DNA of 45,620 nt from Pseudomonadota bacterium (GTDB taxonomy: Bacteria; Desulfobacterota; Desulfobulbia; Desulfobulbales; SURF-16), in contig JAHIVT010000149.1 in NCBI GenBank assembly GCA_018816555.1, positions 1 through 45,620 on the forward strand, written 5' to 3'. Below the pieces are notes generated by a model. That model was not told the origin of the DNA. It worked only from the letters and a program-made list of their open reading frames with translations, and searched no databases. This document shows positions 29,253 through 45,256 of this stretch, piece after piece. The stretch's first letter is position 1, and every line of letters begins with the position of its first letter. Made by a program: the position numbers and the translations under genes.

Positions 29253-30283
29253 TGCCAGGTCACCAGTGTTGCGTCGTCACGTTGCGGGGTAAGGGGCTCA
29301 AAAAGCATCTGTGCGATTACTGCGGGGGAAAGAGAGAAATCGGCGGACAAATCGGCAATTCTCTTCTGCCCGTCAGTATGCATGGACACCCTTACCCCGG
29401 AAAGAACCTTGTACTCCTGTCCGGTTATCTTCCGCCATTTGGCATGGCCGAGAATGCCGGACGGGTCCGTCTCTTCGATAAGCTCACCGTCAAGCGAGAT
29501 CAGCGTTGCGATGTTGCCGATGCCGGCGGAGGAGAGCAGCCCTTTGACATGGTCAAACAGCAGGACATGGACTGCGGCCCCGTTGGTTTTCACCAGGGCG
29601 AATTCCACCTCTTCCAACAGGTTGGCCGGCGGCCAGAACAGCGCATGCCTGTCCAGCTCGGCAAAAACACGGCTGGTGATCTCCGCCGCCCCTTGCCCCA
29701 GCCCAAGGCTGTCAACTATGGTAATTCGGGTAAAGCGCCCATCCTGCTGCACATGCACGCCGTCGCCGCCGCCCCAGCCTTCCCCTCCTCTGGACTGGCT
29801 GAGGATCGCCAGGGAACCGCCGATGCGGATAATCTCTTCATTGGCCTGATGGTCCGGCCCGAGGAGCGCGGAAATAATCGTTTCATAGGGGGATTGCATT
29901 TCCGACCGGGCCATGTGGGAAAAAATATCCAGTCTGTCCGACAGCCGCAGGACAGTGCCCATGCCCGCGCCCAGCCCGCAGCCCACTATATTTTTCCGAT
30001 GCTGCATGCAGACTGCGGGATCAAACCCGGGGCCGTGATCAAGGCTGGAAATAGATAAACAGGGAATTGACGAGGCATAAAAGCCGGAGAGGCGAATCAA
30101 ACCATGAACGGTATGATGCATGACGTGGTTATACGCCAGCTCACTGGTCACCAGCACCGCTTCAGCCTTGCGGCTCTGCGAAAATCCCAGCAGCATGGCC
30201 AGTTCGCCGGCCACCCTTCTGGCCACCGTGGCGCTGGCCATGTTTTCAATGGGAATATCGGCAAAAAGACAGCTGGGAAGCAT
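29219..30283 (-). CDS. RsbT-like ATPase fused to RsbX/SpoIIE-like PP2C phosphatase
   Basis: ATG 30283 gives 354 residues; TTG 30292 is an alternative that overlaps the rsbS stop. The N-terminal ~140 residues are a GHKL switch-kinase domain: RRVAGELAMLLGFS, TSELAYNHVMHH (N-box), DHGPGFDP (G1) and GCGLGAGMGTVLRLSD (G2). The remainder looks like a PP2C-type RsbX/SpoIIE phosphatase: GGDGVHVQQ, a DSLGLGQGA segment (in place of DGLGHG) and RDDATLVTW at the end. In stressosomes RsbT phosphorylates RsbS/RsbR and RsbX removes the phosphates; here kinase and phosphatase appear to be one polypeptide. Confidence 0.8.
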   Translation of the reverse strand: MLPSCLFADIPIENMASATVARRVAGELAMLLGFSQSRKAEAVLVTSELAYNHVMHHTVHGLIRLSGFYASSIPCLSISSLDHGPGFDPAVCMQHRKNIVGCGLGAGMGTVLRLSDRLDIFSHMARSEMQSPYETIISALLGPDHQANEEIIRIGGSLAILSQSRGGEGWGGGDGVHVQQDGRFTRITIVDSLGLGQGAAEITSRVFAELDRHALFWPPANLLEEVEFALVKTNGAAVHVLLFDHVKGLLSSAGIGNIATLISLDGELIEETDPSGILGHAKWRKITGQEYKVLSGVRVSMHTDGQKRIADLSADFSLSPAVIAQMLFEPLTPQRDDATLVTWQWPEKSTNHYT

Positions 30284-30288
30284 GATTA

Positions 30289-30657
30289 TCAATTTCCGCC
30301 GATCTGCATTTTTTCTTCCAGCTTGGACACCGCTTTTTCAACATCCAGGGCAAACTCCAGGTCGCTGAGCCGGATGCCGAAATCCGTCAAGGTCATCACC
30401 ACCGGCACGGAAAGGCCGACCACCACCATGTGCGCATGGAGCAGACGAAGGGTTGCCGCCATATCCTGCAGATAGCCCGCCATATAGGAATCAACCACCT
30501 CAAGGTTGTGCAGATCAACGATGACACCCAGGAACTTTTTTTCACTCACCTGTCTGGACAAACTGTCAAACATCCTGGATACCTCGGCATCACCGATGTC
30601 CTCCTGGATGGAAACCAGCAGCATCGTTCCGAGAGAAAAGAAGGAAAACGGTTGCAT
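30289..30657 (-). CDS. rsbS: Stressosome scaffold protein RsbS (STAS domain)
   Basis: The 122-residue single STAS domain begins ISIQ-like LLVSIQEDIGD and contains GVIVDLHNLEVVDSYMAG. In RsbS the Ser of the D-S-(F/Y) motif is phosphorylated by RsbT. It also has VVVGLSVPVVMTLTDFGI, typical of RsbS. It should assemble with RsbR into the icosahedral stressosome core and sequester the switch kinase until stress. It lies 18 bases after rsbR and 5 bases before the RsbT-X-like gene. Confidence 0.88.
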   Translation of the reverse strand: MQPFSFFSLGTMLLVSIQEDIGDAEVSRMFDSLSRQVSEKKFLGVIVDLHNLEVVDSYMAGYLQDMAATLRLLHAHMVVVGLSVPVVMTLTDFGIRLSDLEFALDVEKAVSKLEEKMQIGGN

Positions 30658-30675
30658 GGCGGCCTCTTTTGGCGA

Positions 30676-31554
30676 TCACTCGCCGGCGCCGCGGACCAGA
30701 GTAGTCGCCCTGGCGACCTGCTCCGATTTCCTGGCCAGCTCGCCGATGGCAAAATGGAGGGCATCGGTCATTCTGCCCCGCACCGTCAGGTTCTCCAACC
30801 CCACCCCGCCCTGGGCGATTACCTGGGCGATGTGCGGCCCCACCCCGGTGAGAATGGCCTCGCTGCCCATCAACCGGGTGGCGTTAGCCGTCTGCAGGAT
30901 ATGCCCCGCCACTTCGGAATCCACCATGGGCACGCCGGTGATGTCGATGATCACGAAAGAGGCCCGGTGCCGTTCAATGGCCTCCAATACCTTTTCCATG
31001 GCAATCTTGGCCCGGTGGCTGTCCAGCGTGCCGATGAGGGGCAGGCTGAGAATGCCATCCCATATTTCAATCACCGGGGTGGAAAGTTCCATGATTTCAT
31101 CCTGCAGATGGCGGATATCCTCCTCCCGCTTTTTAATGAGTCGCTCTTTCTGTTCCCAGATGATCTTATCCTTTTCCAGACGATCGGTAATATCGATGAA
31201 GTTCTCCACACAGCCGATGATCTCACCCTTGTAATTGCGCAGGGGGCGGGCCGAATATTCCAGGGGGATTTCCTGCTCGTTATAGAGAAGGACAGTCTGA
31301 CCCTGGATGATCGTCTGGCTTTCCATGGCCAGCCGGCAGGTGCAGTTGGGGGTATTGCAGAGTGGGGTTTTGAAGATCTCGTAACATTTGCGGTCAAAGC
31401 ATTCCCCGCACCTCTTCCCCACCATCTGAGCGCCGGCCTTGTTGATCATGAGAATATTATGATCGGGATCAGTCACAAAAATCCCCGAAGTGATGGCATT
31501 GATAATTTCTGAAAGAAATCCTTCATCCTGGCTCAGATCATTCAAATCTTTCAT
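30676..31554 (-). CDS. rsbR: RsbR-type stressosome sensor: PAS plus STAS
   Basis: The protein is 292 residues. The PAS domain (about 12-135) has GIFVTDPDHNILMINKAG and a cysteine-dense segment, CGECFDRKCYEIF with CNTPNCTC, also seen in PAS sensors of sulfate reducers and plausibly a metal or redox site. A coiled linker follows, then the STAS domain from about 160: ELSTPVIEIWDGILSLPLIG (an RsbR hallmark), VIIDITGVPMVDSEVAGH (phospho-site region) and EAILTGVGPHIAQ. It should sense a small molecule or redox state and pass it to RsbS/RsbT. First gene of the operon, with a GGAGAAGGGG ribosome site. Confidence 0.88.
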   Translation of the reverse strand: MKDLNDLSQDEGFLSEIINAITSGIFVTDPDHNILMINKAGAQMVGKRCGECFDRKCYEIFKTPLCNTPNCTCRLAMESQTIIQGQTVLLYNEQEIPLEYSARPLRNYKGEIIGCVENFIDITDRLEKDKIIWEQKERLIKKREEDIRHLQDEIMELSTPVIEIWDGILSLPLIGTLDSHRAKIAMEKVLEAIERHRASFVIIDITGVPMVDSEVAGHILQTANATRLMGSEAILTGVGPHIAQVIAQGGVGLENLTVRGRMTDALHFAIGELARKSEQVARATTLVRGAGE

Positions 31555-31807
31555 ATCCCCTTCTCCCCTTTATTGTGAACCCCCGGTAATATTACGGATA
31601 ATCCTCTTATCCTAACCATTAGGATACCATCACTTCCTTATAACGTATAATTTTAATTTCCAACACCAGGATTTACAAATAAAAAACAGAAATATTTCGG
31701 CTGGCATATTGCAAAACTTACAGAAGCTGTTTATAAGAAAAGCAATTTTTACATAGCTTATTCTTGCATCAAACCCACATAAAATTTCTTAACTTTTGCG
31801 GTATGTC

Positions 31808-33028
31808 ATGACAGAAATTGACCTTTCTCCATTGCGGGCAGAACTCAAAAAGCATTTCCTGAAGTCGATGCCCAACTCCAACCTTGAGTATTGCCTCACC
31901 TGCGGCCTCTGCGCCAGCGGCTGCCCTGCCAGCGACATCGAAGGTATGGACCCCCGCAAATTCATCCGTTATCTTGTTCTGGGCCAGGACGACCTGCTGA
32001 AAAACACCAACTGGCTCTATACCTGCTCCATCTGCCAGCGATGTGAATACGCCTGCCCCATGGGCATTCATGTCGGCCGTTTCGTTTACGAGCTGAAGGG
32101 CATGAAACCCAAGGAGCTGCGGCCGAAGAACCTGCAGAAATCCTGCGAACTGCAGAAAGAGGGCAATTCAACCGGGGTGCCCAACGCGGATTTTGTCTGG
32201 GTTGTCGGCGACATTCTCGAAGAGGTCCATGCCAACGAACCGGAATGGGCGGATCTCAAGGCCCCCATGGACAAGGTCGGCGCCCAGTTTTACCTGAACC
32301 AGAACGCCAAGGAACCCACAGTTGAGCCGGAAGAAATGGTTTTCTTGTGGAAGATCCTGCATGCGGCCGGCATTGACTGGACCTATTCCTCCAAATGGTG
32401 GGACGGCGCCAACTACTGTCTCTTTTCCGGTGATCCAAAGGATTGGGAATATGTCACCCGGATGCAGGCGGAAACGGTGGACGCCCTGGGCTGCCCGACG
32501 TACATAAACACCGAATGAGGCCACATGCTTTTTGCAACCCTGGAAGGGTTGAAAAGATTTAAAATCCCACACGACTTTGAAGTGGTGAGCATTATCAGCC
32601 TCTACGCCAAATGGATCAGAGAAGGAAGACTGAAACTCGATCCATCCTGGAACACTGAAGGTCTGAAATTCACCGTGCAGGACCCCTGCAAACTGGTGCG
32701 CCAGTCTCTGGGGGACCCGGTGGCGGATGATCTGCGGTTTGTCATTAAACAGGTATGCGGCGAGGAAAATTTCATCGACGTCTGGCCCAACAAGTCCAAC
32801 AACTACTGTTGCGGAGGAGGAGGCGGGGCAATCCAGGCCGGATTCACCGAAAACCGTATGAAACACGGGCGGATGAAATTCGAGCAGCTCCATACCACCG
32901 GGGCGGATGTGGTAATCACCCCTTGCCATAACTGCCATACCCAGGTCAAGGACATCTGCAAGTACTACGGCGGCAAATGGCAGACTACCCACCTGTGGAA
33001 CTGGATTGTCAAGGCCCTGGTTAGGTGA
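31808..33028 (+). CDS. HdrC-HdrB type heterodisulfide-reductase subunit with selenocysteine
   Basis: ATG 31808 (MTEIDLSPL) opens an HdrC-like part with two [4Fe-4S] sites, CLTCGLCASGCP and CSICQRCEYACPMG. It continues to in-frame UGA at 32516-32518 after PTYINTE. The same frame resumes GHMLFATLEGLKRF and continues with a canonical CCG domain: DPCKLVR, NNYCCGGGGG and TPCHNC, ending at 33026-33028. In relatives this position reads ECGH, so UGA is taken as Sec237; the total is 406 residues. An ORF caller would split it into two genes. A SECIS-like hairpin follows the UGA (32535-32551). The subunit should carry the catalytic Fe-S centre that reduces a disulfide, with electrons from HdrA. First gene of the hdr-flx operon. 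Confidence 0.87.
32535..32551 (+). promoter_or_regulatory. SECIS-like hairpin for UGA decoding
   Basis: CAACCC (32535-32540) pairs perfectly with GGGTTG (32546-32551) around the loop UGGAA. The stem starts 17 bases after the UGA, and the loop guanines are 24-25 bases after it, within the range used by bacterial SelB. The conserved apical G pair is present. Confidence 0.7.
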
Positions 33029-33030
33029 AG

Positions 33031-33086
33031 AAACGTTCCAGCGTGGAAGCGTTTCAGCGTTCAAACGTTGAAACCCTGGAACGTTT
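33031..33086. repeat. Nested inverted repeat (cruciform-like) before hdrA
   Basis: The outer arms AAACGTTCCAG (33031-33041) and CTGGAACGTTT (33076-33086) are perfect. The inner arms GTTTCAGCGTT (33051-33061) and AACGTTGAAAC (33064-33074) have one G-U type mismatch. Related CGTTT...AAACG sequence continues to 33094 and occurs again at 20373-20394. It looks like a dispersed intergenic element and may modulate hdrA expression within the operon. Confidence 0.6.
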
Positions 33087-33124
33087 AAACGCTTGAACAT
33101 TTTTAAATAAAAACGGAAAGAAAC

Positions 33125-36100
33125 ATGCCCAAAGGATCGGTATTAGTCGTTGGCGGTGGTATTGCAGGCGTGCAGGCAGCGCTGGACCTGGCAAACAGCG
33201 GGTTTCTCGTTCACCTGGTTGAAAGAACCGCGGCAATCGGCGGCAAGATGTCCCAATTGGACAAGACCTTCCCCACAAACGATTGCTCCGCCTGTATTCT
33301 CTCCCCAAAACTGGTGGAATGCGGCAGACATATGAACATCAATCTGCTCACCCTGTCCGACCTGGTCTCACTTGATGGCGAACCAGGCAACTTCAGGGCT
33401 GTTGTCCGCCAGCGTCCCCGTTATGTGGATCCGACAAAATGCATCGCCTGCGGACTGTGCGCCGAAAAATGCCCAAAAAAGGTGCCCAACGATTACAACA
33501 TGGGCATCGGCAAGCGCAAGGCCGCTTATCTAAGCTATCCCCAGGCCGTTCCCCTGAAATACGCCATTGATCCTACCCACTGTATCTGGATCAACAAACC
33601 TGGCCGCTGCGGCATATGCGCCAAGGAATGTCCGGCCGGGGCCATCAATTTTGATGACCGGGAAAAGGACCATGTCCTGGAAGTGGGCTCCGTGGTTCTG
33701 GCCCCCGGTTTTTCCCGTTTCAATCCGTCCTCTCTTGACTTCACCGGCTATGGCCGCCTGCCCAACGTGGTCACCTCCATGGAGTTCGAGCGGATGCTCA
33801 GCCCGTCCGGTCCCTGCATGGGCCACCTGGAACGGCCATCCGACGGCAAAGAACCACAAAGAATCGCCTGGTTGCAATGCGTGGGCTCGCGGGACATCCA
33901 CCGGGCCGGCAATGCCTACTGCTCCTCGGTATGCTGCATGTTCGCCCTTAAGCAGGCGGTGATCTCCATGGAACATGCCCACGGAGAGTTTGAGCCCTCC
34001 ATTTTTTACATGGATATGCGCACCCACGGCAAAGGCTTTGAAAATTACTACAACCGGGCCAAGGAGCAGGGAGTGCGCTTTCACCGGGCCCGGGTGCATT
34101 CCATCATCCCGGCGGATGACCAGGGCAACCTGAAAATCCGCTATGTGGACCAGCAGGGCAAGGTCAACTTTGAGGAGTTCGACATGGTGGTCCTGTCCAC
34201 CGGCCTGCAGCCCTACAGACATATCATCGAGCTGGCCGCCATGCTCAAACTTGAGCTTGACGCCGACCATTTCATCAAGACCGACAGTTTCAATCCGGTA
34301 GCCTCCAGCAGACCGGGCGTCTATGTCTGCGGAGCCGCCTCAGAGCCCAAGGACATTCCCCAGTCGGTGATGGAGGCCAGCGCCGCCGCGGCCGAGGCGG
34401 GCCGCATCCTGGCCCCGGTGCGCTGGACGGAAACCAGCAAAAAACAATACCCCATGGAGATGGACATCCATGCCCAGCCTCCCCGCATCGGCGTGTTCGT
34501 CTGCCACTGCGGCATCAACATCTCAAGTGTGGTTGATGTGGCGGCGGTCTCGGCCTATGCGGGCAACCTGCCCGATGTGGTCTTTTCCCAGGCCAACCTG
34601 TTCACCTGCTCCCAGGACACCATCAACCAGATGATCAATATCATCAAGGAAGAGAAGCTCAACCGGGTGGTGGTGGCCTCCTGCTCACCCCGCACCCATG
34701 AGCCCCTTTTCCAGGAAACCCTGCGGGATGCCGGGCTAAACCAATTTCTCTTTGAGATGGCCAATATCCGGGACCAAGACTCCTGGGTCCACCAGCATGA
34801 ACCGGTCAAGGCCACGGCCAAGGCCATGGACCTGGTGCGCATGGCAGTGGCCAGGGTGCGCGGCGAAGGCGCCCTGCCCTACAATACCGTACCGGTTACC
34901 AAGTCCGCCCTGGTCATTGGCGGCGGCGTCTCCGGTATGACAGCAGCCCTGACTTTTGCCGAGCAGGGTTATCCGGTCACCTTGATTGAACAGAGCGACA
35001 TGCTCGGCGGCAACGGCCGCAAGGTCTTCCGCAACTGGAAGGGTGATGCCATCCTGCCCTATGTCACCGATCTGGCGGCCAAGGTTACCACTCATCCGCA
35101 GATCAACGTCAAGTTCAACTGTGAAATTAAGGATGTGGCCGGTTCGGTGGGAAAATTCTCCACCACCTTTTCCGACGGCCAGAGTTTCGAACACGGGGTG
35201 GCGGTCATGGCGGTGGGCGGCGAGCCCTACAAACCGGAAGGCAAATGGCAGTTCCTGCACGGCAGCAATGCCAATGTGCATACCCTGCTTGAACTCGACA
35301 AACGCTTTATTGAAGAGGACGCAACGCTTAAAAAGGTCAAGCAGGCGGTCTTCATCCATTGCGTCGGTTCGCGTATCCCGGAACGCCCCTACTGCAGCCG
35401 GGTCTGCTGTACCCATGCCGTTGATTCGGCCATCAAGCTCAAAGAACTGAACCCGGACATGGACATCTTCATGCTCTACCGGGACATCCGCACCTATGGC
35501 CAGCGGGAGCGACTTTACCAGGAGGCCCGTGGTAAAGGCATTATCTTTATCAACTACGATCTTGACCGTATGCCCCAGGTGGAAGAAGTTAACGGCCAAC
35601 TCATCGTCAAGGCCCATGACCCGATTATAGACGCCCATGTCACTATCCATCCGGACATGCTGGTGCTTGCCACCGCCATCCAGCCAAGACAGCAGAGCGG
35701 CAAAAACCTGGCCAAGTTCTTTAAATGCGCCATTGACAGCCAGGGATTCCTGCTGGAGGCCCACATGAAGCTGCGGCCGGTGGATTTTGCCACGGAAGGC
35801 GTTTTTCTGGCCGGCCTCTGCCATTTCCCGAAATCCATGGAAGAGTCCATTGCCCAGGCCAAGGCAGCGGCCGCCCGGGCCAGCATTATCCTGGCCCATG
35901 ATGTGGTGCCGGCTGAAAGCATCACCGCCGAGGTCAACCGCGCCAAATGCACCGGCTGCGGCCTGTGCGTCGAGGTCTGCGCCTACAATGCGGTGAGCCT
36001 TGATGAAAACGGCCTGTCGTTGGTCAATACCAGTATGTGTAAGGGCTGCGGCAACTGCGTGGCCGGCTGCCGCTCGGACGCCGTCACCCTGAAGAATGTG

Positions 36101-36151
36101 GGCAACGAACAGATCATGGCTGCAGTAGACGCAGCTTTCTGTGATGAGTAA
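33125..36151 (+). CDS. hdrA: HdrA-type FAD/Fe-S subunit, tandem (double) form
   Basis: The 1008-residue protein consists of two HdrA-like halves. Half one: FAD motif VVGGGIAGVQAAL at the N-terminus, HdrA cysteines TNDCSACILSPKLVECGRH, then ferredoxin sites CIACGLCAEKCP and CGICAKECPAG. Half two from about 450: VFVCHCGINISSVVDV, SCSPRTHEPLF, a second FAD motif VIGGGVSGMTAALTFAEQG (about 593), and HCVGSR...YCSRVCC. The C-terminus has two more [4Fe-4S] sites, CTGCGLCVEVC and CKGCGNCVAGC. HdrA bears the FAD that bifurcates electrons between ferredoxin and the disulfide-reducing subunit. The hdr subunit with Sec is upstream, FlxD downstream overlapping by 8 bases. Confidence 0.92.
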   Translation: MPKGSVLVVGGGIAGVQAALDLANSGFLVHLVERTAAIGGKMSQLDKTFPTNDCSACILSPKLVECGRHMNINLLTLSDLVSLDGEPGNFRAVVRQRPRYVDPTKCIACGLCAEKCPKKVPNDYNMGIGKRKAAYLSYPQAVPLKYAIDPTHCIWINKPGRCGICAKECPAGAINFDDREKDHVLEVGSVVLAPGFSRFNPSSLDFTGYGRLPNVVTSMEFERMLSPSGPCMGHLERPSDGKEPQRIAWLQCVGSRDIHRAGNAYCSSVCCMFALKQAVISMEHAHGEFEPSIFYMDMRTHGKGFENYYNRAKEQGVRFHRARVHSIIPADDQGNLKIRYVDQQGKVNFEEFDMVVLSTGLQPYRHIIELAAMLKLELDADHFIKTDSFNPVASSRPGVYVCGAASEPKDIPQSVMEASAAAAEAGRILAPVRWTETSKKQYPMEMDIHAQPPRIGVFVCHCGINISSVVDVAAVSAYAGNLPDVVFSQANLFTCSQDTINQMINIIKEEKLNRVVVASCSPRTHEPLFQETLRDAGLNQFLFEMANIRDQDSWVHQHEPVKATAKAMDLVRMAVARVRGEGALPYNTVPVTKSALVIGGGVSGMTAALTFAEQGYPVTLIEQSDMLGGNGRKVFRNWKGDAILPYVTDLAAKVTTHPQINVKFNCEIKDVAGSVGKFSTTFSDGQSFEHGVAVMAVGGEPYKPEGKWQFLHGSNANVHTLLELDKRFIEEDATLKKVKQAVFIHCVGSRIPERPYCSRVCCTHAVDSAIKLKELNPDMDIFMLYRDIRTYGQRERLYQEARGKGIIFINYDLDRMPQVEEVNGQLIVKAHDPIIDAHVTIHPDMLVLATAIQPRQQSGKNLAKFFKCAIDSQGFLLEAHMKLRPVDFATEGVFLAGLCHFPKSMEESIAQAKAAAARASIILAHDVVPAESITAEVNRAKCTGCGLCVEVCAYNAVSLDENGLSLVNTSMCKGCGNCVAGCRSDAVTLKNVGNEQIMAAVDAAFCDE

Positions 36152-36629
36152 GACCAATAAGACCAGTGAGACCAATATGACTAGTGAGACTAACGAGACC
36201 GACACATGGGAACCCAAAATCATCGCCTTCCTGTGCACCTGGTGCAGTTATGCCGGGGCCGATCTGGCCGGAGTCAGCCGTTTCCAGTATCCGCCCAACA
36301 TCAGGATTGTCAAGGTGCCCTGCTCGGGCAGGGTCAGCGAGAACATGATCTTGTCAGCGCTTAAGTCAGGCGCCGACGGCATCCTGGTTTCCGGCTGCCA
36401 CCCGGGCGACTGCCACTTTATCAGCGGCAATATGTTTGCCAGAAGGCGTTCTCCCCTGCTCGGCAACTTGCTTGAATTTGTGGGCATCGAACCGGGCCGG
36501 GTCAGCTTTTCCTGGGTATCGGCCTCGGAAGGCGAACAGTTTGCCGAGATTGTTAAAACCGTGACGGAAAGAGTCAAAGCGTTGGGACCGGCAACCCGTC
36601 TGATCAAAAAAATCGATCAGGCTGCATAG
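36144..36629 (+). CDS. flxD: MvhD/FlxD-type iron-sulfur electron-transfer subunit
   Basis: ATG 36144 overlaps the hdrA stop by eight bases. The product has 161 residues. The domain proper starts at about residue 22 with KIIAFLCTWCSYAGADLAG, then VPCSGRVSENMIL, GADGILVSGCHPGDCHF and FSWVSASEG, all MvhD (2Fe-2S, DUF-type delta subunit) marks. It passes electrons between the FlxABC dehydrogenase and HdrA. The first ~20 residues are an oddity: a (K/E)-T-(N/S) repeat encoded by six 9-base repeats, absent from ordinary homologues. ATG 36178 would give a shorter form. Confidence 0.88.
   Translation: MSKTNKTSETNMTSETNETDTWEPKIIAFLCTWCSYAGADLAGVSRFQYPPNIRIVKVPCSGRVSENMILSALKSGADGILVSGCHPGDCHFISGNMFARRRSPLLGNLLEFVGIEPGRVSFSWVSASEGEQFAEIVKTVTERVKALGPATRLIKKIDQAA
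36151..36204 (+). repeat. Six 9-bp tandem repeats in the N-terminus of flxD
   Basis: The units are AGACCAATA, AGACCAGTG, AGACCAATA, TGACTAGTG, AGACTAACG and AGACCGACA, head to tail without gaps. They encode a three-residue repeat (K/E/M-T-N/S/D). The repeat starts at the last base of the hdrA stop codon. Confidence 0.85.
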
Positions 36630-36690
36630 TTTAGAGCAAAACTTTCAACCGTGAAATACGAACTTTGTTTTCCATAAGGCAGAAGAGAGC

Positions 36691-37737
36691 ATGCCAACAA
36701 TCAACGAAAAATTAACCGAAGAAATCAGGACACAGGCCAAGGCACTTCTTGCCGACGGCACGGTTGCCGCGGTTATCGGCTATAGCCGGGGCAGCCTGCC
36801 CATGACCGTCAAACCCACGGTGGTCCGTGCGAGCGAGGATTGCGGCAAACTGGTATGGAACAGCTTCTGCGTGCTGAACCTGGCCAATTACCTGCCGGAG
36901 GTGCTGAAATCCGTTGAGCCGCCCCGCGGTCCCCGCGACCCGAAACCGGAAGGCCCGCTGGCCAAGGTGGCGGTTCTGGCCACCGGCTGCTGGTCCCGCA
37001 ATATCGTGGTACAGACTCAGGAGCACCAGGTTGACCGCGACCGGGTGGTGGTCCTGGGCGTGGCCAGTCGCGGCATGGTCAGCCGGCGCAAGGTGGAGGA
37101 GCAGTTTGCCGGCCGTGAGATCCTGGCGGTGGAGGAGTTCGACCATGACCTGGTGATTAAGGGCGCTGACTTTGAAGAAAAAATTAACCGTTGGAGCGTG
37201 GTGCGCGACAACTGCCAGACCTGCACCCGTCCTGATCCGGTGCTGGTTGATGTACGCATCGGCGAGCCCGCCTCGGAAAGAAAGAACCCTAATCCCTTCC
37301 AGCAGGTTGACAAAATCGAAGAAAAATCAAGTGACGAGCGCTGGGCCTGGTTCACCTCGGAGTTTTCCACCTGCATCCGCTGCTATGCCTGCCGCAACGC
37401 CTGCCCCCTGTGCTACTGCCCCACCTGCTTTGTCGATGACGCCAAACCACAGTGGGTGGGAAAAAGCCTTGATGCGGTGGACACCGGCCTCTTCCATCTC
37501 CTGCGGGCTTATCACTGCGCCGGACGCTGCACCGACTGCGGAGCCTGCGAGTCGGTGTGCCCCATGGGAATCAACATGCGGATGCTGACCAAAAAACTGA
37601 ACAAGGATGTGCTGAACCTGTATGGCATGGAGGCGGGAATGCAGCCCGCTTCTCCCCTGCCGCTTACCACATACGCAACTGATGACCCCCAGAAATTTAT
37701 TGTAACCGAAGCCAAGGCTGTCAAGGAGGGCGAGTAA
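36691..37737 (+). CDS. flxC: FlxC-like iron-sulfur subunit
   Basis: The 348-residue protein has an N-terminal region like the F420-hydrogenase beta family (VIGYSRGSLPMTVKP, VLATGCWSRNIVVQTQ). A CQTC pair follows (about residue 176), and then ferredoxin-type sites FSTCIRCYACRNACPLCYCPTC and CTDCGACESVCPMG (read as separate CxxC groups). It matches the FlxC/HdrF-type component of the FlxABCD-HdrABC complex. It should relay electrons between the FAD/NAD subunit and FlxD. Ribosome site AGAAGAGAG before ATG 36691; 61 bases after flxD and two bases before the next start. Confidence 0.8.
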   Translation: MPTINEKLTEEIRTQAKALLADGTVAAVIGYSRGSLPMTVKPTVVRASEDCGKLVWNSFCVLNLANYLPEVLKSVEPPRGPRDPKPEGPLAKVAVLATGCWSRNIVVQTQEHQVDRDRVVVLGVASRGMVSRRKVEEQFAGREILAVEEFDHDLVIKGADFEEKINRWSVVRDNCQTCTRPDPVLVDVRIGEPASERKNPNPFQQVDKIEEKSSDERWAWFTSEFSTCIRCYACRNACPLCYCPTCFVDDAKPQWVGKSLDAVDTGLFHLLRAYHCAGRCTDCGACESVCPMGINMRMLTKKLNKDVLNLYGMEAGMQPASPLPLTTYATDDPQKFIVTEAKAVKEGE

Positions 37738-37739
37738 CT

Positions 37740-38777
37740 GTGAAGGTTTTCAGATTATCACAGACTGAACTGGACAACATGGTTCAGGGGTGGAGCCAAA
37801 ACCGCAGGGTTTACCGCCCTGCCGCGGGCAGGCAGCAATCGACCCATGCCGACTGCGCACCGGGCTGGGAGCGGGTTGCCGCTAGCACGCCGCTCACTTT
37901 GCCCCCCGGCCCCTCCAAAACATCGGTGAAGACCTTCCTCTTCCCCCAGCCGGAAACCATGCAGACCTACACCCTGAAGAGCAGTGATCCGGACAAGGGC
38001 CTGATGAAGGAACCGCAAAAGGCCACGGAAAAACAGATCATTGTCGGCCTGCGACCCTGCGATGCCCGCAGCGTCAAGCTCAACAACCTGCCCTTTCAGG
38101 AAGACCCCTTTTACCAGGTGAATCTTGCCCGCACCGTCATGGTGGGCTTCACCTGCAGCGCCATGTGCGCAACCTGTTTCTGCGATCAGATGGGCGGCTC
38201 GCCCATGGGCACCGAGGGCCTGGATATTGCCATCTCCCAAGTTGACGGCTCTTTTATCGCCGAGGTCTTGACTCCGGTCGGTGAAGAACTCACTGCGGAA
38301 ATCAGGCTTACCCCGGCAGAAGACAGCGAAATCAACGCCCTGGCCGAACGCCGCAAGAACTCCCCCCAGGCGGATTTTGCCAAACTCGACGTCCTGAAGG
38401 GCCGGGATCTCAATACACTCTACAAGGCGGCCCTGTGGCAGACGCTGGGGGAATCCTGCATCAACTGCGGGGCCTGCACCTTCAACTGCCCCACCTGCTA
38501 CTGCTTTGACGTGCAGGACGAGGTGGTGCGCGGCCAGGGGCGACGCATCCGCTACTGGGATTCCTGCATGTTCCCCCTGTACAGCCTGCACACCACCGGC
38601 CACAACCCCCGGGGCCAGAAGATGCAGCGCACCAGAAACCGCTTCATGCACAAACTGAAATATTTTCCGGAACGCTACGGTCTCTTTTCCTGTGTAGGCT
38701 GCGGCCGCTGCGTCAAGGATTGTCCGGTTAACATTGATATCCGCGAGGTTATGAGCGACCTCCTGGCGGTGGAGTAA
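37740..38777 (+). CDS. flxB: FlxB-like (AsrA-type) iron-sulfur subunit
   Basis: GTG 37740 is used, because an AGGAGGG site lies upstream and no ATG fits. The 345-residue protein resembles the AsrA/hydrogenase-sulfhydrogenase beta family: VGLRPCDARSVKLNN, GFTCSAMCATCFCDQ, and two [4Fe-4S] motifs CINCGACTFNCPTCYC and CVGCGRCVKDCPVNID. A long low-homology insertion at about residues 25-60 differs from the usual form. It would pass electrons from the FAD subunit FlxA onward. It ends three bases before flxA. Confidence 0.85.
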   Translation: MKVFRLSQTELDNMVQGWSQNRRVYRPAAGRQQSTHADCAPGWERVAASTPLTLPPGPSKTSVKTFLFPQPETMQTYTLKSSDPDKGLMKEPQKATEKQIIVGLRPCDARSVKLNNLPFQEDPFYQVNLARTVMVGFTCSAMCATCFCDQMGGSPMGTEGLDIAISQVDGSFIAEVLTPVGEELTAEIRLTPAEDSEINALAERRKNSPQADFAKLDVLKGRDLNTLYKAALWQTLGESCINCGACTFNCPTCYCFDVQDEVVRGQGRRIRYWDSCMFPLYSLHTTGHNPRGQKMQRTRNRFMHKLKYFPERYGLFSCVGCGRCVKDCPVNIDIREVMSDLLAVE

Positions 38778-38780
38778 GAT

Positions 38781-39614
38781 ATGATTTCCTATTTGCCATA
38801 CCCTGTCCGCATCGACGAGATCAAAGTTGAAACGGAAGACGGCAACCTGAAAACCTTTAAGCTTGTCTTTGAAAACGAGACGCAGAGAAAGGCCTGGAAA
38901 CACGTGCCCGGCCAGTTTGCCATGCTCTCATTGGCCGGACAGGGCGAGATCCCCATCGGCATCGCCTCCTCCCCCACGGAAGAAGGCCATTTGCTCTTCA
39001 CCGTCAACCGGGCCGGCAAGGTGACCACCGCCCTGCACCAGATGCATATGGGCGAGAGAATGGGCGTACGCGGCCCGCTGGGCAACGGTTTTCCCATTGA
39101 CACCGACATGAAGGGCAAGAATATCGTCATCATTGCCGGCGGTTTTGCCGTCACCACCCTGCGCGCCACCCTGATCTACCTCATGGAGCACCGGCAGGAT
39201 TACGGCAAAATCACCTTTATTTACGGCGCCAGAACCCCGGGCATGCTGCTTTACCAGAATGAGCTGCAGGAGTGGGCCAAACGGGACGATGTGGATCTGC
39301 ATATCACCGTGGACCGCGAGGCCCCAGGCTGGGACGGCTTGGTGGGCTTTGTGCCCACCATTGCCGGCCAGGTGGCCCCTTCGCCGGAAAACAGCGTAGC
39401 ACTGATCTGCGGCCCGCCCATCATGATAAAATTCACCATGCCGCCGCTGGAAAAAATCGGCTGGACCGACGACCAGGTCTATCTCTCCTTGGAAAACCGG
39501 ATGAAATGCGGTGAAGGCGTCTGTTGCCACTGCAACGTCGGCCCCACCCTGGTCTGCAAGGACGGTCCGGTCTTTACCCGCACCCAGGTAAGGAAACTTC
39601 CTGTTGAGTATTAA
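38781..39614 (+). CDS. flxA: FlxA-like FAD/NAD(P)-binding oxidoreductase with [2Fe-2S]
   Basis: The 277-residue protein belongs to the ferredoxin-NADP reductase superfamily (AsrB, HydG, PyrK-like). It has the FAD-binding barrel with HVPGQFAMLSLAG, GPLGNGFPI, the NAD(P) motif IVIIAGGFAVTTLRATL and FIYGARTPGMLLY. The C-terminal [2Fe-2S] ligands are CGEGVCCHCNVGPTLVC. It oxidises NADH (or NADPH) as electron entry or exit of the Flx-Hdr complex. It is the last gene of the operon, followed by two hairpins. The last 65 codons exist in a second copy at 43623-43820. Confidence 0.9.
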   Translation: MISYLPYPVRIDEIKVETEDGNLKTFKLVFENETQRKAWKHVPGQFAMLSLAGQGEIPIGIASSPTEEGHLLFTVNRAGKVTTALHQMHMGERMGVRGPLGNGFPIDTDMKGKNIVIIAGGFAVTTLRATLIYLMEHRQDYGKITFIYGARTPGMLLYQNELQEWAKRDDVDLHITVDREAPGWDGLVGFVPTIAGQVAPSPENSVALICGPPIMIKFTMPPLEKIGWTDDQVYLSLENRMKCGEGVCCHCNVGPTLVCKDGPVFTRTQVRKLPVEY

Positions 39615-39675
39615 GGGAAAAGCAACCCTTTTCCCTCCTTCAACCAGCAGCAACTCCCGGTCATCAGAGACCGGG
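39615..39675 (+). terminator. Two hairpins ending the hdr-flx operon
   Basis: GGGAAAAG (39615-39622) pairs with CTTTTCCC (39628-39635). CCCGGTC (39656-39662) pairs with GACCGGG (39669-39675). Both stems are perfect. Neither has a strong T run, although the first is followed by TCCTTC. Confidence 0.5.
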
Positions 39676-39694
39676 TGCAAGACAACAATTTCGA

Positions 39695-39788
39695 CCTTGT
39701 GTCTCATAAATTCATTGATACAATCTTTCATCCCAGTTCATACCCCGTTTGAGATCCTGGACGAATGAACCGCTGACGAGACACAAGG
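39695..39788. repeat. 11-bp inverted repeat flanking about 70 bases
   Basis: CCTTGTGTCTC (39695-39705) and GAGACACAAGG (39778-39788) are perfect complements. The enclosed stretch has no recognisable gene. It could be a small non-autonomous element or chance structure between the operon end and the ferredoxin gene. Confidence 0.4.
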
Positions 39789-39810
39789 CCGCAACCTTTC
39801 TGCTTAACTT

Positions 39811-40002
39811 CTAGCTATGTCGCCTCATTGGTTTGATGGTGGCGAAACCATATTCCCCGCAAATCTTGCGACAGCAGCCGCATCCTATACATTTTTCGGT
39901 ATCAACATAAATTGCATCCGCCTGTTCAATAAGAGCTTTGACCGAACACACCGGTTTGGCGAAACAGGATGCACAGTTCTTTTTACAAATAGGATTAATC
40001 AT
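39811..40002 (-). CDS. Small ferredoxin-like protein
   Basis: The 63-residue product has a very good GGAGGT ribosome site. It has an unusual N-terminal cysteine group, CKKNCASCFAKPVC, followed by one classical [4Fe-4S] half, CIGCGCCRKIC, and a basic tail. The N-terminal group is probably another cluster or zinc ligand set. It could serve the neighbouring glutamate synthase-like protein as electron donor; it is downstream of it on the same strand, 235 bases away. Confidence 0.75.
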   Translation of the reverse strand: MINPICKKNCASCFAKPVCSVKALIEQADAIYVDTEKCIGCGCCRKICGEYGFATIKPMRRHS

Positions 40003-42397: not shown

Positions 42398-43405
42398 ATG
42401 AGCGAGAAAACAGAAAAAAGACAGCTGATAATTCTAAAAATTCTCAGGAAAGCGAACCGTCCTCTCGGCAGCTCCAAAATCATGGAGAATCTGGAAGCCT
42501 TTGGCCAGGATATAAATGAACGCACAGTCCGTCATTATCTTATGGAGATGGACAATAAAGGCCTCACTAAAAATCTTGGCAGAAGAGGCCGCATAATCAC
42601 CGAAGAGGGCATTGCAGAACTTAATACCGCTCGTATTTTCGACAAGGTTGGTTTCCTGGCCGCCAAAATCGACCAGCTCACCTATCGGATGACCTTTGAT
42701 CTCAACAAACTGTGCGGAACCGTCATCACCAACATCAGCCTGTTGACACCTGAACAGATAAAAACACTTTCTCCTCTTATCTGCCGGGTTTATGAGGAGG
42801 GATACTCCATGGGTGACATGATGGCCCTGTTTGAGCCCGGTCAAAAAATAGGCGAGGTTCCTGTTCCTGAAAACATGCTGGGCCTGGGGACCATTTGTTC
42901 AATCACCATCAACGGAGTTCTGTTGTCCCACGGCATTCCCACCCGTTCAACATTTGGAGGACTGCTTGAACTGAGAAACAGGGAACCCTTGCGATTTGCA
43001 GAAATAATCACTTATGAGGGCTCCAGCATGGATCCTCTTGAAATCTTCATCAAAACGGGCATGACCGACTACATGGGAGCCACCACAACGGGCAATGGCC
43101 GAATCGGTGTGGGTTTTCGGGAAATGCCGGCGGACAGTCGCGACAGTGTTGTAAACCTTACGCACAAACTCAAAAAAGCGGGGCTCGGCTGTTTTCTGAA
43201 GATCGGCTGGCCGGGCCAGCCTCTGCTGGAAATTCCGGTGAACGAAGGACGTTTTGGCGCCATCGTTATCGGAGGACTGAATCCTATCGCAATTCTTGAA
43301 GAAATTGACATCAAAATAAAATCGCGGGCCCTGGCGGGAATGATAGAATATGAGAAGTTATTCCATTACCAGGAATTGGCAGGGAAAATAAAAGGGTTAA
43401 TCTGA
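42398..43405 (+). CDS. nrpR: NrpR-family nitrogen-regulatory repressor
   Basis: The 335-residue protein has a winged helix at the N-terminus (ILKILRKANRPLGSSKI, DINERTVRHYLMEM, GLTKNLGRRGRIITEEG). A single NrpR (DUF128) effector domain follows: LGTICSITINGVLLSHGIPTR and TTTGNGRIGVGFREMP, GGLNPIAILEE. In methanogens NrpR represses nif and glnA and is released by 2-oxoglutarate. Archaeal proteins often have two such domains; this has one. Its neighbour is a glutamate synthase-like gene, which fits a nitrogen role. It is probably self-regulated through the palindromes upstream. An archaeal origin of the gene is likely but not proven. Confidence 0.88.
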   Translation: MSEKTEKRQLIILKILRKANRPLGSSKIMENLEAFGQDINERTVRHYLMEMDNKGLTKNLGRRGRIITEEGIAELNTARIFDKVGFLAAKIDQLTYRMTFDLNKLCGTVITNISLLTPEQIKTLSPLICRVYEEGYSMGDMMALFEPGQKIGEVPVPENMLGLGTICSITINGVLLSHGIPTRSTFGGLLELRNREPLRFAEIITYEGSSMDPLEIFIKTGMTDYMGATTTGNGRIGVGFREMPADSRDSVVNLTHKLKKAGLGCFLKIGWPGQPLLEIPVNEGRFGAIVIGGLNPIAILEEIDIKIKSRALAGMIEYEKLFHYQELAGKIKGLI

Positions 43406-43820: not shown

Positions 43821-44371
43821 TTTTTTTTTTGGTGAAAAAGATCCGCAGTGGGCAATGGCGGTTGAGCGATCCGGCTTACCCGCCATTTCTTTTGCCTCTG
43901 TGATTTTTCAACTACCAAGTCCGCCCGGATCAATACCAAGCTGACCATTCCACCAGGATCTAACTATCTCCGGATGGACAGCCACCAGCACTGACCTTCC
44001 TCAGCACTCCTTCCGTATTACGTCAGGAATTCCTGCCTCTCAAACATCTGGCCCTGTAAGTACATTGTAATTTTTTCGAAATATCAAAATATAAAACGGT
44101 AAGTTTACAATGTAACATCAGCTATTTGCCACATATCAGCAATTATCAATTCGCAAAAATACGCCACAAATACAACCTATTGAAAGCAATTTTCCTTCTG
44201 ACCATCTTTTTTCCAACAAATAATTTTCTGTAAGCCAGTTTTAAGAAGGGATCTGCCATACTTACCTATTCAAGGGAAGTTATTCCCCATTGCTCCTACT
44301 CTATTTTTCATCTTGATTATCCGGTGACAAGTCACCTTTCGTTATTTAAAAAAAATTATGGAGGAAACAGC
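43821..44371. other. 551-base intergenic region upstream of the split-Soret gene
   Basis: AT-rich, with no convincing coding frame. It contains the perfect inverted pair TACATTGTAA (44061-44070) and TTACAATGTA (44105-44114). Each arm is itself a short palindrome (TACA-T-TGTA and TTACA-A-TGTAA), so it may be two sites for a dimeric regulator. Confidence 0.6.
44061..44114. promoter_or_regulatory. Paired TTACAWTGTAA-like operator candidates
   Basis: The two palindromic sites are 34 bases apart in the AT-rich leader, about 260 bases upstream of the split-Soret start. The regulator is unknown. Confidence 0.4.
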
Positions 44372-45256
44372 ATGATTGACAAAACAAGAAGAAACATTCT
44401 GAAAACCGGTTTTATCGGCGCCGTGGCCGGCTCAACCGTTATCAGCGGTTTGGGAGGCCTATGCAAAATAAAAGAAGCCAAGGCCGATACTTCGGAGCAC
44501 CCTTATCGCTATCCTGCAGAGGGTCTTAATATTAATGACACCCGCCAACTGGCCTATTACAGCTTAAAGGGTATTGCTGTAACAGGCCACAGTGGATGCG
44601 CTTTTGCCACGTTTCATGCCATCATCAGCCAGCTTGCCGATGCTGAAACCAACGGAGAAGTTGATAAATATGGTGATTTTCTTGGTCCTTACAGCCAGAT
44701 ACCCACCCAAATGATGGAATGGGGTGCCGGCGGAGTGGCGGACTATGGCTCCATCTGCGGGACTCTCAATGGTGCCTGCGCCGCTATCGGACTAATTTGT
44801 ACCAATGATCAAGCAAAAAAAATTATCACCTACCTTTTAAATTGGGCAGCTCTATCTCCGTTACCAACAACACCAGACTATAATGTTGTAAATAACTCTG
44901 ATATTGTGACGAGTATTGCAGGCGGTAATCTCTGTCATATGTCTGTTACAAACTGGTGCCTCGCAGCCGGTAAAGCCAGCGGTTCGATTGAACGAAAAGA
45001 AAGGTGTGCCCGGTTAGCCGCCGATGTTGCTGGAACAGTCGTAAAATTGCTTAACGAAGTGCTTAACGAAGATGTTGAACTTGCCCAAACCTCCCCGGCG
45101 GAAGCGACAGGCTGTATTGACTGTCATTCAAGCTCCAATAGTTTTGATGAGGGTGGATTTACCATGGGCAAAATGGATTGCACCACCTGCCATATTGATC
45201 TTGGAAAGGTAGGCGAAGAGGGACATTATCTGTCATTGATCAAGAAACCGGAATAG
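44372..45256 (+). CDS. Split-Soret-type dihaem cytochrome c, Tat-exported
   Basis: ATG 44372 is preceded by GGAGG at 8 bases; an earlier in-frame start (44324) adds 16 residues before the Tat signal and is rejected. The 294-residue product begins TRRNILKTGFIGAV (twin-arginine signal). It has the split-Soret fold marks SGCAFATFHAIISQL, TQMMEWGAGGVADYGSICG and GACAAIGL, followed by two haem sites near the C-terminus, CIDCH and CTTCH. In Desulfovibrio this cytochrome is a periplasmic dimer with closely stacked haems, linked to nitrate or sulfate respiration; its partner is unresolved. Tat export suggests folding with cofactor before transport, unusual for c-type cytochromes. Confidence 0.88.
   Translation: MIDKTRRNILKTGFIGAVAGSTVISGLGGLCKIKEAKADTSEHPYRYPAEGLNINDTRQLAYYSLKGIAVTGHSGCAFATFHAIISQLADAETNGEVDKYGDFLGPYSQIPTQMMEWGAGGVADYGSICGTLNGACAAIGLICTNDQAKKIITYLLNWAALSPLPTTPDYNVVNNSDIVTSIAGGNLCHMSVTNWCLAAGKASGSIERKERCARLAADVAGTVVKLLNEVLNEDVELAQTSPAEATGCIDCHSSSNSFDEGGFTMGKMDCTTCHIDLGKVGEEGHYLSLIKKPE

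Follow-up and report, generated by a model that had tools for sequence, protein, structure and literature searches.

A UGA codon very probably read as selenocysteine in the hdrCB gene of a Flx-Hdr operon from a sulfur-metabolising bacterium

In the sulfur-metabolising bacterium from which the DNA analysed here derives, the UGA codon at positions 32516-32518, inside the hdrCB gene, is very probably read as selenocysteine (Sec). The whole stretch under investigation, hereafter the window, comprises 45,620 nucleotides, and all positions follow the numbering of this whole window. The gene, which specifies a putative fused HdrC-HdrB-type subunit, stands at the head of a Flx-Hdr operon. The gene is a well-supported representative of an already published selenoprotein family, here joined to a partner complex for which no such report was found in the literature searched, and it gives rise to a testable structural idea on the role of Sec. 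The pattern seen among relatives suggests that the Flx-Hdr complexes of a whole sulfur-metabolising clade use selenium at the disulfide-reducing end.

The gene and the two elements that bear on its decoding are the following:

31808..33028, + strand: predicted Sec-containing fused HdrC-HdrB-type (GlpC/DsrK-like) iron-sulfur subunit, 406 aa, UGA read as Sec237
32516..32518, + strand: in-frame UGA, predicted Sec237, motif E-U-G-H; TGA at the same site in 90 of 119 distinct members
32535..32551, + strand: predicted bacterial SECIS apical hairpin, stem 32535-32541 with 32545-32551, loop GGA 32542-32544

A reading of the frame 31808-33028 reveals a single internal stop, the TGA at 32516-32518, which falls at residue 237. 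The sequence across it is NTE-U-GHMLFATLEG and the read-through product has 406 residues, in which Pfam recognizes a Fer4 dicluster at residues 26-88 and a single CCG domain at residues 289-381. An ATG (32525) is located directly after the UGA, and the two adjacent frames correspond to HdrC-like and HdrB-like halves. An initial sequence-only reading had joined these frames into one 406-residue subunit across the UGA, a proposal borne out by the presence of the same UGA in 90 of 119 members.

The codon recurs widely among relatives. A scan of the collection of genome contigs yielded 33 loci, 30 of which were used for the codon count (L041 is cut, and L048 and L049 are short and distant): the corresponding codon reads TGA in all of these except L025, which has TGC (29 against one). 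The class scan gave a match at 1e-60 in 113 of 257 genomes and the phylum scan a match at 1e-100 in 52 of 395 genomes; among the matches listed in the latter, one TGA is present in 54 of 73 rows, and in 17 of the 19 rows at 66% identity or above (hand count). With loci from the class and phylum scans added, the site of residue 237 was compared in 119 distinct members, where distinct denotes a difference over 240 nt around the site and near-copies remain: TGA occupies the site in 90, Cys in 26 and Ser in three, and all 119 display the E-x-G-H motif. This set is non-random, as it was gathered by similarity mostly to Sec queries, counting members at or above 200 bits, and 20 non-TGA matches were fetched into it deliberately; owing to this bias, its Sec:Cys ratio is not a frequency, and the figures of the phylum scan are less biased. 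The sequence-only reading had anticipated Cys at this site in homologues, which the 26 members confirm, and had described the relatives as E-C-G-H. The latter holds for a minority and for DsrK of the same genome (615.6 bits, cut-off 400), which has E-C-G-H at the residue 237 site, whereas most close relatives (29 of 30) read E-U-G-H.

Sixteen nucleotides separate the UGA from a stem whose arms are CAACCCT and AGGGTTG. The hairpin amounts to 7 bp counting a T-A pair; without that pair it has 6 bp and a five-base loop, and the hairpin with GG in its loop that had been noted after the UGA is thus present. The pairing is beyond chance: across 55 Sec members 363 of 385 stem positions are paired and 46 members retain all seven pairs, against a mean of 201 paired positions (sd 8, maximum of 2000 draws 225) and a mean of 0.25 members with all seven pairs when the codons are redrawn synonymously, a null in which the same peptides are recoded independently and relatedness is not kept. 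Two-sided changes preserve the stem at three pairs (A-T to G-C, C-G to T-A, and G-C to T-A). All seven pairs are found in 78 of the 90 Sec copies and six in a further seven. The Cys copies serve as an internal control: none of the 26 has seven pairs and two (L025 and L111) have six. Similarly, a G opens the loop in 90 of 90 Sec members, compared with 11 of 26 Cys members. Fewer pairs are found in the remaining five Sec members, L035, L036, L037, L046 and one of the copies in L191; these could instead fold a stem, GACC(A)/(T)GGTC, that is shifted (17 nt), 4 or 5 bp long and capped by a G-rich loop. Cys member L025 has kept most of the stem and has a changed loop, as would be expected after a recent Sec-to-Cys change.

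The sequence-only reading had also looked to the sel genes of the host, and all four are in place. The contigs of the genome contain selB (371.6 bits, cut-off 242.25) and tRNA-Sec (selC; 71.5, gathering score 47), as well as selA (623.1 bits) and selD (379.7 bits), each above its curated cut-off. Of 32 genomes with a representative of the window's clade, 30 gave a selA match, and the two in which it was missed are 77% and 95% complete. An Rfam scan of positions 30000-40000 returned two matches only, both under the gathering scores, and ARAGORN detected no tRNA in the window. The UGA at 32516-32518 is almost certainly translated as Sec, SelB and tRNA-Sec being the decoding factors and the hairpin (32535-32551) the SECIS. 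The selD gene of the same genome (L051, C145:35773-36699) has one in-frame TGA inside, so that SelD is probably a selenoprotein as well.

The gene of the Sec subunit is the first of an operon with the order hdrCB(Sec)-hdrA-flxD-flxC-flxB-flxA, the remaining members of which are:

33125..36151, + strand: hdrA, long form, 1008 aa, FAD and Fe-S domains, Cys in NDCSAC
36141..36629, + strand: flxD, MvhD/FlpD family, 162 aa, Cys form
36691..37737, + strand: flxC-like Fe-S subunit, 348 aa
37740..38777, + strand: flxB-like Fe-S subunit, 345 aa, AsrA/HydB-related
38781..39614, + strand: flxA-like NAD(P)H-binding flavoprotein, 277 aa, AsrB/HydG-related

The letters FlxA, FlxB, FlxC and FlxD are those that we presume to apply to the window genes. 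By sequence similarity, the downstream genes represent the gene set of a Flx-Hdr complex; this set and the domains of the first product agree with the fused HdrC-HdrB-type subunit in a Flx-Hdr operon that had been recognized at the outset. The motifs NDCSAC in HdrA and GCH in FlxD are Cys forms, hence the fused subunit alone uses Sec in this operon. The complete operon occurs at 29 distinct loci including the window (31 were listed, two of them duplicates), 27 with Sec and two with Cys (L025 and L187), and the complete loci with Sec span 72-98% identity to the window protein. L029, at a contig end, is without flxA only, and the loci L024, L026, L041 and L188 are incomplete because they are cut. 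At 58-61% identity, the relatives L189/L174 and L190 have hdrA and mvhD, and no flxABC match was found in the 16 kb fetched; a distant member at 37% identity, L035, also adjoins flxCBA-like genes. Elsewhere in the window, the operon is followed by a gene (42398-43405) whose product combines NrpR regulatory domains (PF01995) with a winged helix, an NrpR-like match being located behind the operon in L021 too, and a protein with a C_GCAxxG_C_C redox domain (PF09719) is encoded near the window end (44324-45256).

The genome harbours further paralogues, two with Sec (C180 and C121) and one with Cys (C145). The C121 operon contains a glpC-like Sec gene followed by genes for HdrA (NDCSMU), an MvhD with U, a protein resembling hydrogenase small subunits (PF01058) and the large subunit of a nickel hydrogenase; in-frame TGAs are present in the glpC-like gene, hdrA and mvhD, with a late one in the hydrogenase large-subunit gene. 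This is the gene order glpC-hdrA-frhD-frhG-frhA given in the available text of PMC1794560. The C121 copy (L056/L095) carries an N-terminal helix-turn-helix (PF12728) that the window protein does not have, and such a DNA-binding-like domain is an odd feature for an Hdr selenoprotein. Approximately 20 related hydrogenase-linked loci (e.g. L082-L089, L091-L093, L098 and L099) show an extra N-terminal segment of ∼100 residues, and in the two hydrogenase-linked members scanned an HTH_17 match is at or barely above the Pfam cut-off. A different arrangement is observed in L100, L104 and L113, where the Sec protein adjoins a second CCG protein, ahead of hdrA and mvhD; the second protein of L100, the one scanned among the three, has Fer4 and two CCG stretches.

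The invariant Cys positions in a 22-row alignment (A1) are C29, C32, C35, C39, C73, C76, C79, C83, C237 (the Sec position), C294, C334, C335, C373 and C376, and C237 is the sole one between C83 and C294. By homology, the eight positions from C29 to C83 would ligate two cubane 4Fe-4S clusters, and C294, C334, C335, C373 and C376 would ligate one noncubane cluster. Two complete CCG motifs, as in HdrB/HdrD with two noncubane clusters, were not found: Pfam detects one CCG stretch. Residue 237 was placed by alignments to a two-CCG relative and to DsrK. HHalign against the HdrB-like protein of the C180 locus aligned the second CCG half only (probability 32%) and hence did not help to place the residue. 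In keeping with the sequence-only reading, residue 237 falls within the degenerate first CCG half and outside the DPC, CCGGGGG and CHNC motifs.

A structural counterpart is provided by EtfD of M. smegmatis (9ojn). The C-terminal profile of the window protein matches it weakly (28.8 bits, E 6.5e-06), with E-U-G-H-M over T-C581-P-H583-C584, the residue matches being counted by hand along the printed alignment, and the whole-protein profile also matches EtfD (52.9 bits). The best structural match of a predicted model (mean pLDDT 79.3) is again EtfD (Z 21.6 over 358 residues, rmsd 3.0; Foldseek E 3.7e-10), and a further high match is 3kwl, a protein from H. pylori (Z 18.1). According to the available text of PMC13083937, Cys581 of EtfD is a ligand of a linear 3Fe-4S cluster, the noncubane 4Fe-4S cluster is held by Cys637, 672, 673, 709 and 712 and by His583, and the authors consider that His583 renders the noncubane cluster non-catalytic. 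On the alignment and these ligands, U237 would match the ligand of a cluster whose other Cys are not conserved here, and H239, two residues from Sec237, would match the His ligand of the noncubane cluster, all five Cys of which are present. The earlier suggestion that Sec may be a ligand or a thiolate at the disulfide-reducing centre is made specific by this alignment; three members have Ser in its place.

The explanation that we favour, and regard as reasonably probable, is that the Sec subunit constitutes the HdrC-HdrB end of Flx-Hdr and that a selenolate at the noncubane cluster acts on the DsrC disulfide. The Sec codon, the SECIS, the sel genes, the operon and the residue match are its sequence-based parts, from which we infer the cluster assignment, the electron path, DsrC as partner and the Sec chemistry. 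NAD(P)H electrons would enter at FlxA and travel through FlxB, FlxC and FlxD to the flavin of HdrA, where ferredoxin would receive one share and a high-potential disulfide, reduced by the Sec subunit, the other. The high-potential branch, modelled on the published Flx-Hdr, would run from the cubane clusters of the Sec subunit to its noncubane cluster; the complex may also operate in reverse. On the substrate side of the noncubane cluster the selenolate would most probably form a transient selenenyl-sulfide with the DsrC disulfide or aid its cleavage. DsrC is the likely high-potential partner: it is encoded in 30 of the 32 genomes holding a clade member and in 28 of 28 of good quality, and the two-Cys tail ACKMAGLPKPTGCV ends at least 26 of the 30 DsrC copies fetched, three spurious frames and one miss not being counted as tails. 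Any dsr organism, however, would be expected to have DsrC, which makes its occurrence here weak evidence for the partnership. A more tentative proposal concerns the branch with one CCG: there, a single Sec may replace the missing second noncubane cluster, and the cluster and Sec237, the latter as selenenyl-sulfide, would split the halves of a DsrC disulfide or trisulfide between them. If true, Hdr chemistry would run with one cluster and one selenolate.

The main rival to the catalytic reading is a ligand role, in which Sec237 would bind Fe of the noncubane (or a residual second) cluster directly as a selenolate and tune its potential without contact with the substrate. EtfD lends itself to such a view, Cys581 being a ligand of the linear 3Fe-4S cluster and the neighbouring His583 of the noncubane one in the available text of PMC13083937. 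Yet the remaining Cys of the linear cluster are not conserved, C237 alone is invariant between C83 and C294 and three members accommodate Ser; we therefore consider a ligand role rather unlikely. A separate point against the catalytic reading is that, in the view of the EtfD authors, the matching His renders the cluster non-catalytic, so that the conserved His239 could mean pure electron transfer.

A further possibility is that the window protein is an ordinary GlpC-type selenoprotein in which Sec and Cys are exchangeable, the mechanism unchanged and the flx partner the outcome of operon reshuffling. The window's clade accounts for 21 of the 62 rows of a tree (support 100/99), 20 of the 21 being Sec, and Sec is the commoner state at residue 237 in this clade. 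The Cys state is scattered over the tree and needs at least three changes, and it extends to flx-linked members whose genomes keep selA (G178 and G320). Ser is specified by three different codons in L118, L119 and L120 (genomes G132, G130 and G131, respectively, of one genus). The three Ser members and the two flx-linked Cys members (L025 and L187) imply that Sec is not indispensable. As separate observations, G130, G131 and G132 each also have copies with TGA in the class scan, and L191 (G384:C3) holds two different Sec members of the family, at 35% and 53% identity to the window protein, within ∼4 kb. Set against free exchange is the retention of Sec by 27 of the 29 complete flx loci over the 72-98% identity range which, together with a SECIS kept in nearly all Sec copies, indicates that something selects for Sec. 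Simple exchangeability is thus doubtful.

If the UGA were a true stop, separate HdrC-like and HdrB-like proteins would be made, the second from ATG 32525, as two adjacent frames and an ATG immediately after the stop might suggest. This is highly improbable: that ATG is the M of GHM in the window's clade, whereas the corresponding residues are GHA, GHV or GHE in other Sec members, and these lack the ATG; moreover, Cys members form one open frame, and Sec copies maintain the SECIS that Cys copies have lost. A split gene with re-initiation at ATG 32525 was rejected because this ATG is missing from Sec members that fall outside the clade. Routine gene calling would break such genes into two. Finally, although the genome is fragmented (183 contigs), an assembly error or a pseudogene is scarcely credible, and a sequencing error behind the UGA is countered and assembly error dismissed by recurrence of the same UGA in separate records from other assemblies (29 of 30 homologues and, among the matches listed, 54 of 73 rows of the phylum scan).

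Fer4 dicluster plus CCG is what we take to be the architecture of the GlpC UGH selenoprotein family, and the window protein has both. By motif, architecture and the C121 operon, the window protein is assigned to this known family, which goes by the names GlpC, COG0247 and PTHR43551 and has WP_174406253.1 as published reference. In the available text of a 2026 review a Sec 'Fe-S oxidoreductase-like protein' family with the motif UGH is predicted with high confidence (PMC13188914); the same family figures in the accessible parts of PMC9312934 and PMC1914089, and its Sec form adjoining hdrA was described in 2006 (PMC1794560, from the part available). The U-G-H motif, the Fer4 and CCG architecture, and hdrA and frhD/mvhD as neighbours are shared with the window. 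Compared with the GlpC-type operon of C121, the window has flxC, flxB and flxA in place of the hydrogenase genes, both its HdrA and its FlxD are Cys forms, and the fused subunit has no N-terminal helix-turn-helix.

The complex FlxABCD-HdrABC is reportedly that of Ramos et al. 2015. It is described in PMC6687939 and PMC4287179, the available text of which indicates a set shared with the window: HdrA, an MvhD-like protein, two Fe-S subunits, an NAD(P)H flavoprotein, and HdrC and HdrB functions. HdrB and HdrC are separate there, whereas in the window the two are fused into one chain, which has Sec and a single complete CCG motif. No Sec form in a Flx-Hdr operon was found in the literature searched, outside which lie Ramos 2015, Pereira 2011, Zhang 2007 and Kryukov 2004. 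For Desulfobacterium autotrophicum HRM2, HdrD4 is listed as a selenocysteine-containing protein with domains homologous to HdrC and HdrB and no transmembrane part (PMC2702500, available text); it shares Sec and both domains with the window protein, likened by description, and no flx linkage is given in the text available. Sec at residue 237 had at first been thought unusual: this view does not stand, as Sec is the commoner state in the clade and, on the portions of the sources available, both the UGH family and HdrD4 had already been published.

EtfD (PDB 9ojn), the best structural match, has counterparts in the window protein for the five Cys and one His of its noncubane cluster; in contrast, EtfD is, according to the available text, a membrane protein that keeps a linear 3Fe-4S cluster, for which the window protein does not have the full ligand set. 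DsrK, HmcF and TmcB share E-[C/U]-G-H, which is present in DsrK of the same genome. The models NF045711, NF045724 and NF045796 match the window protein over most of its length, and its scores fall far below the equivalog cut-offs for DsrK, HmcF and TmcB (138.2 against 400, 174.9 against 750 and 172.7 against 735 bits, respectively). Unlike these proteins, the window protein belongs to an Hdr-Flx operon and has Sec for Cys. It thereby offers a concrete residue, placed by homology beside the noncubane cluster, at which the role of selenium, and that of the matching Cys in DsrK, can be tested directly.
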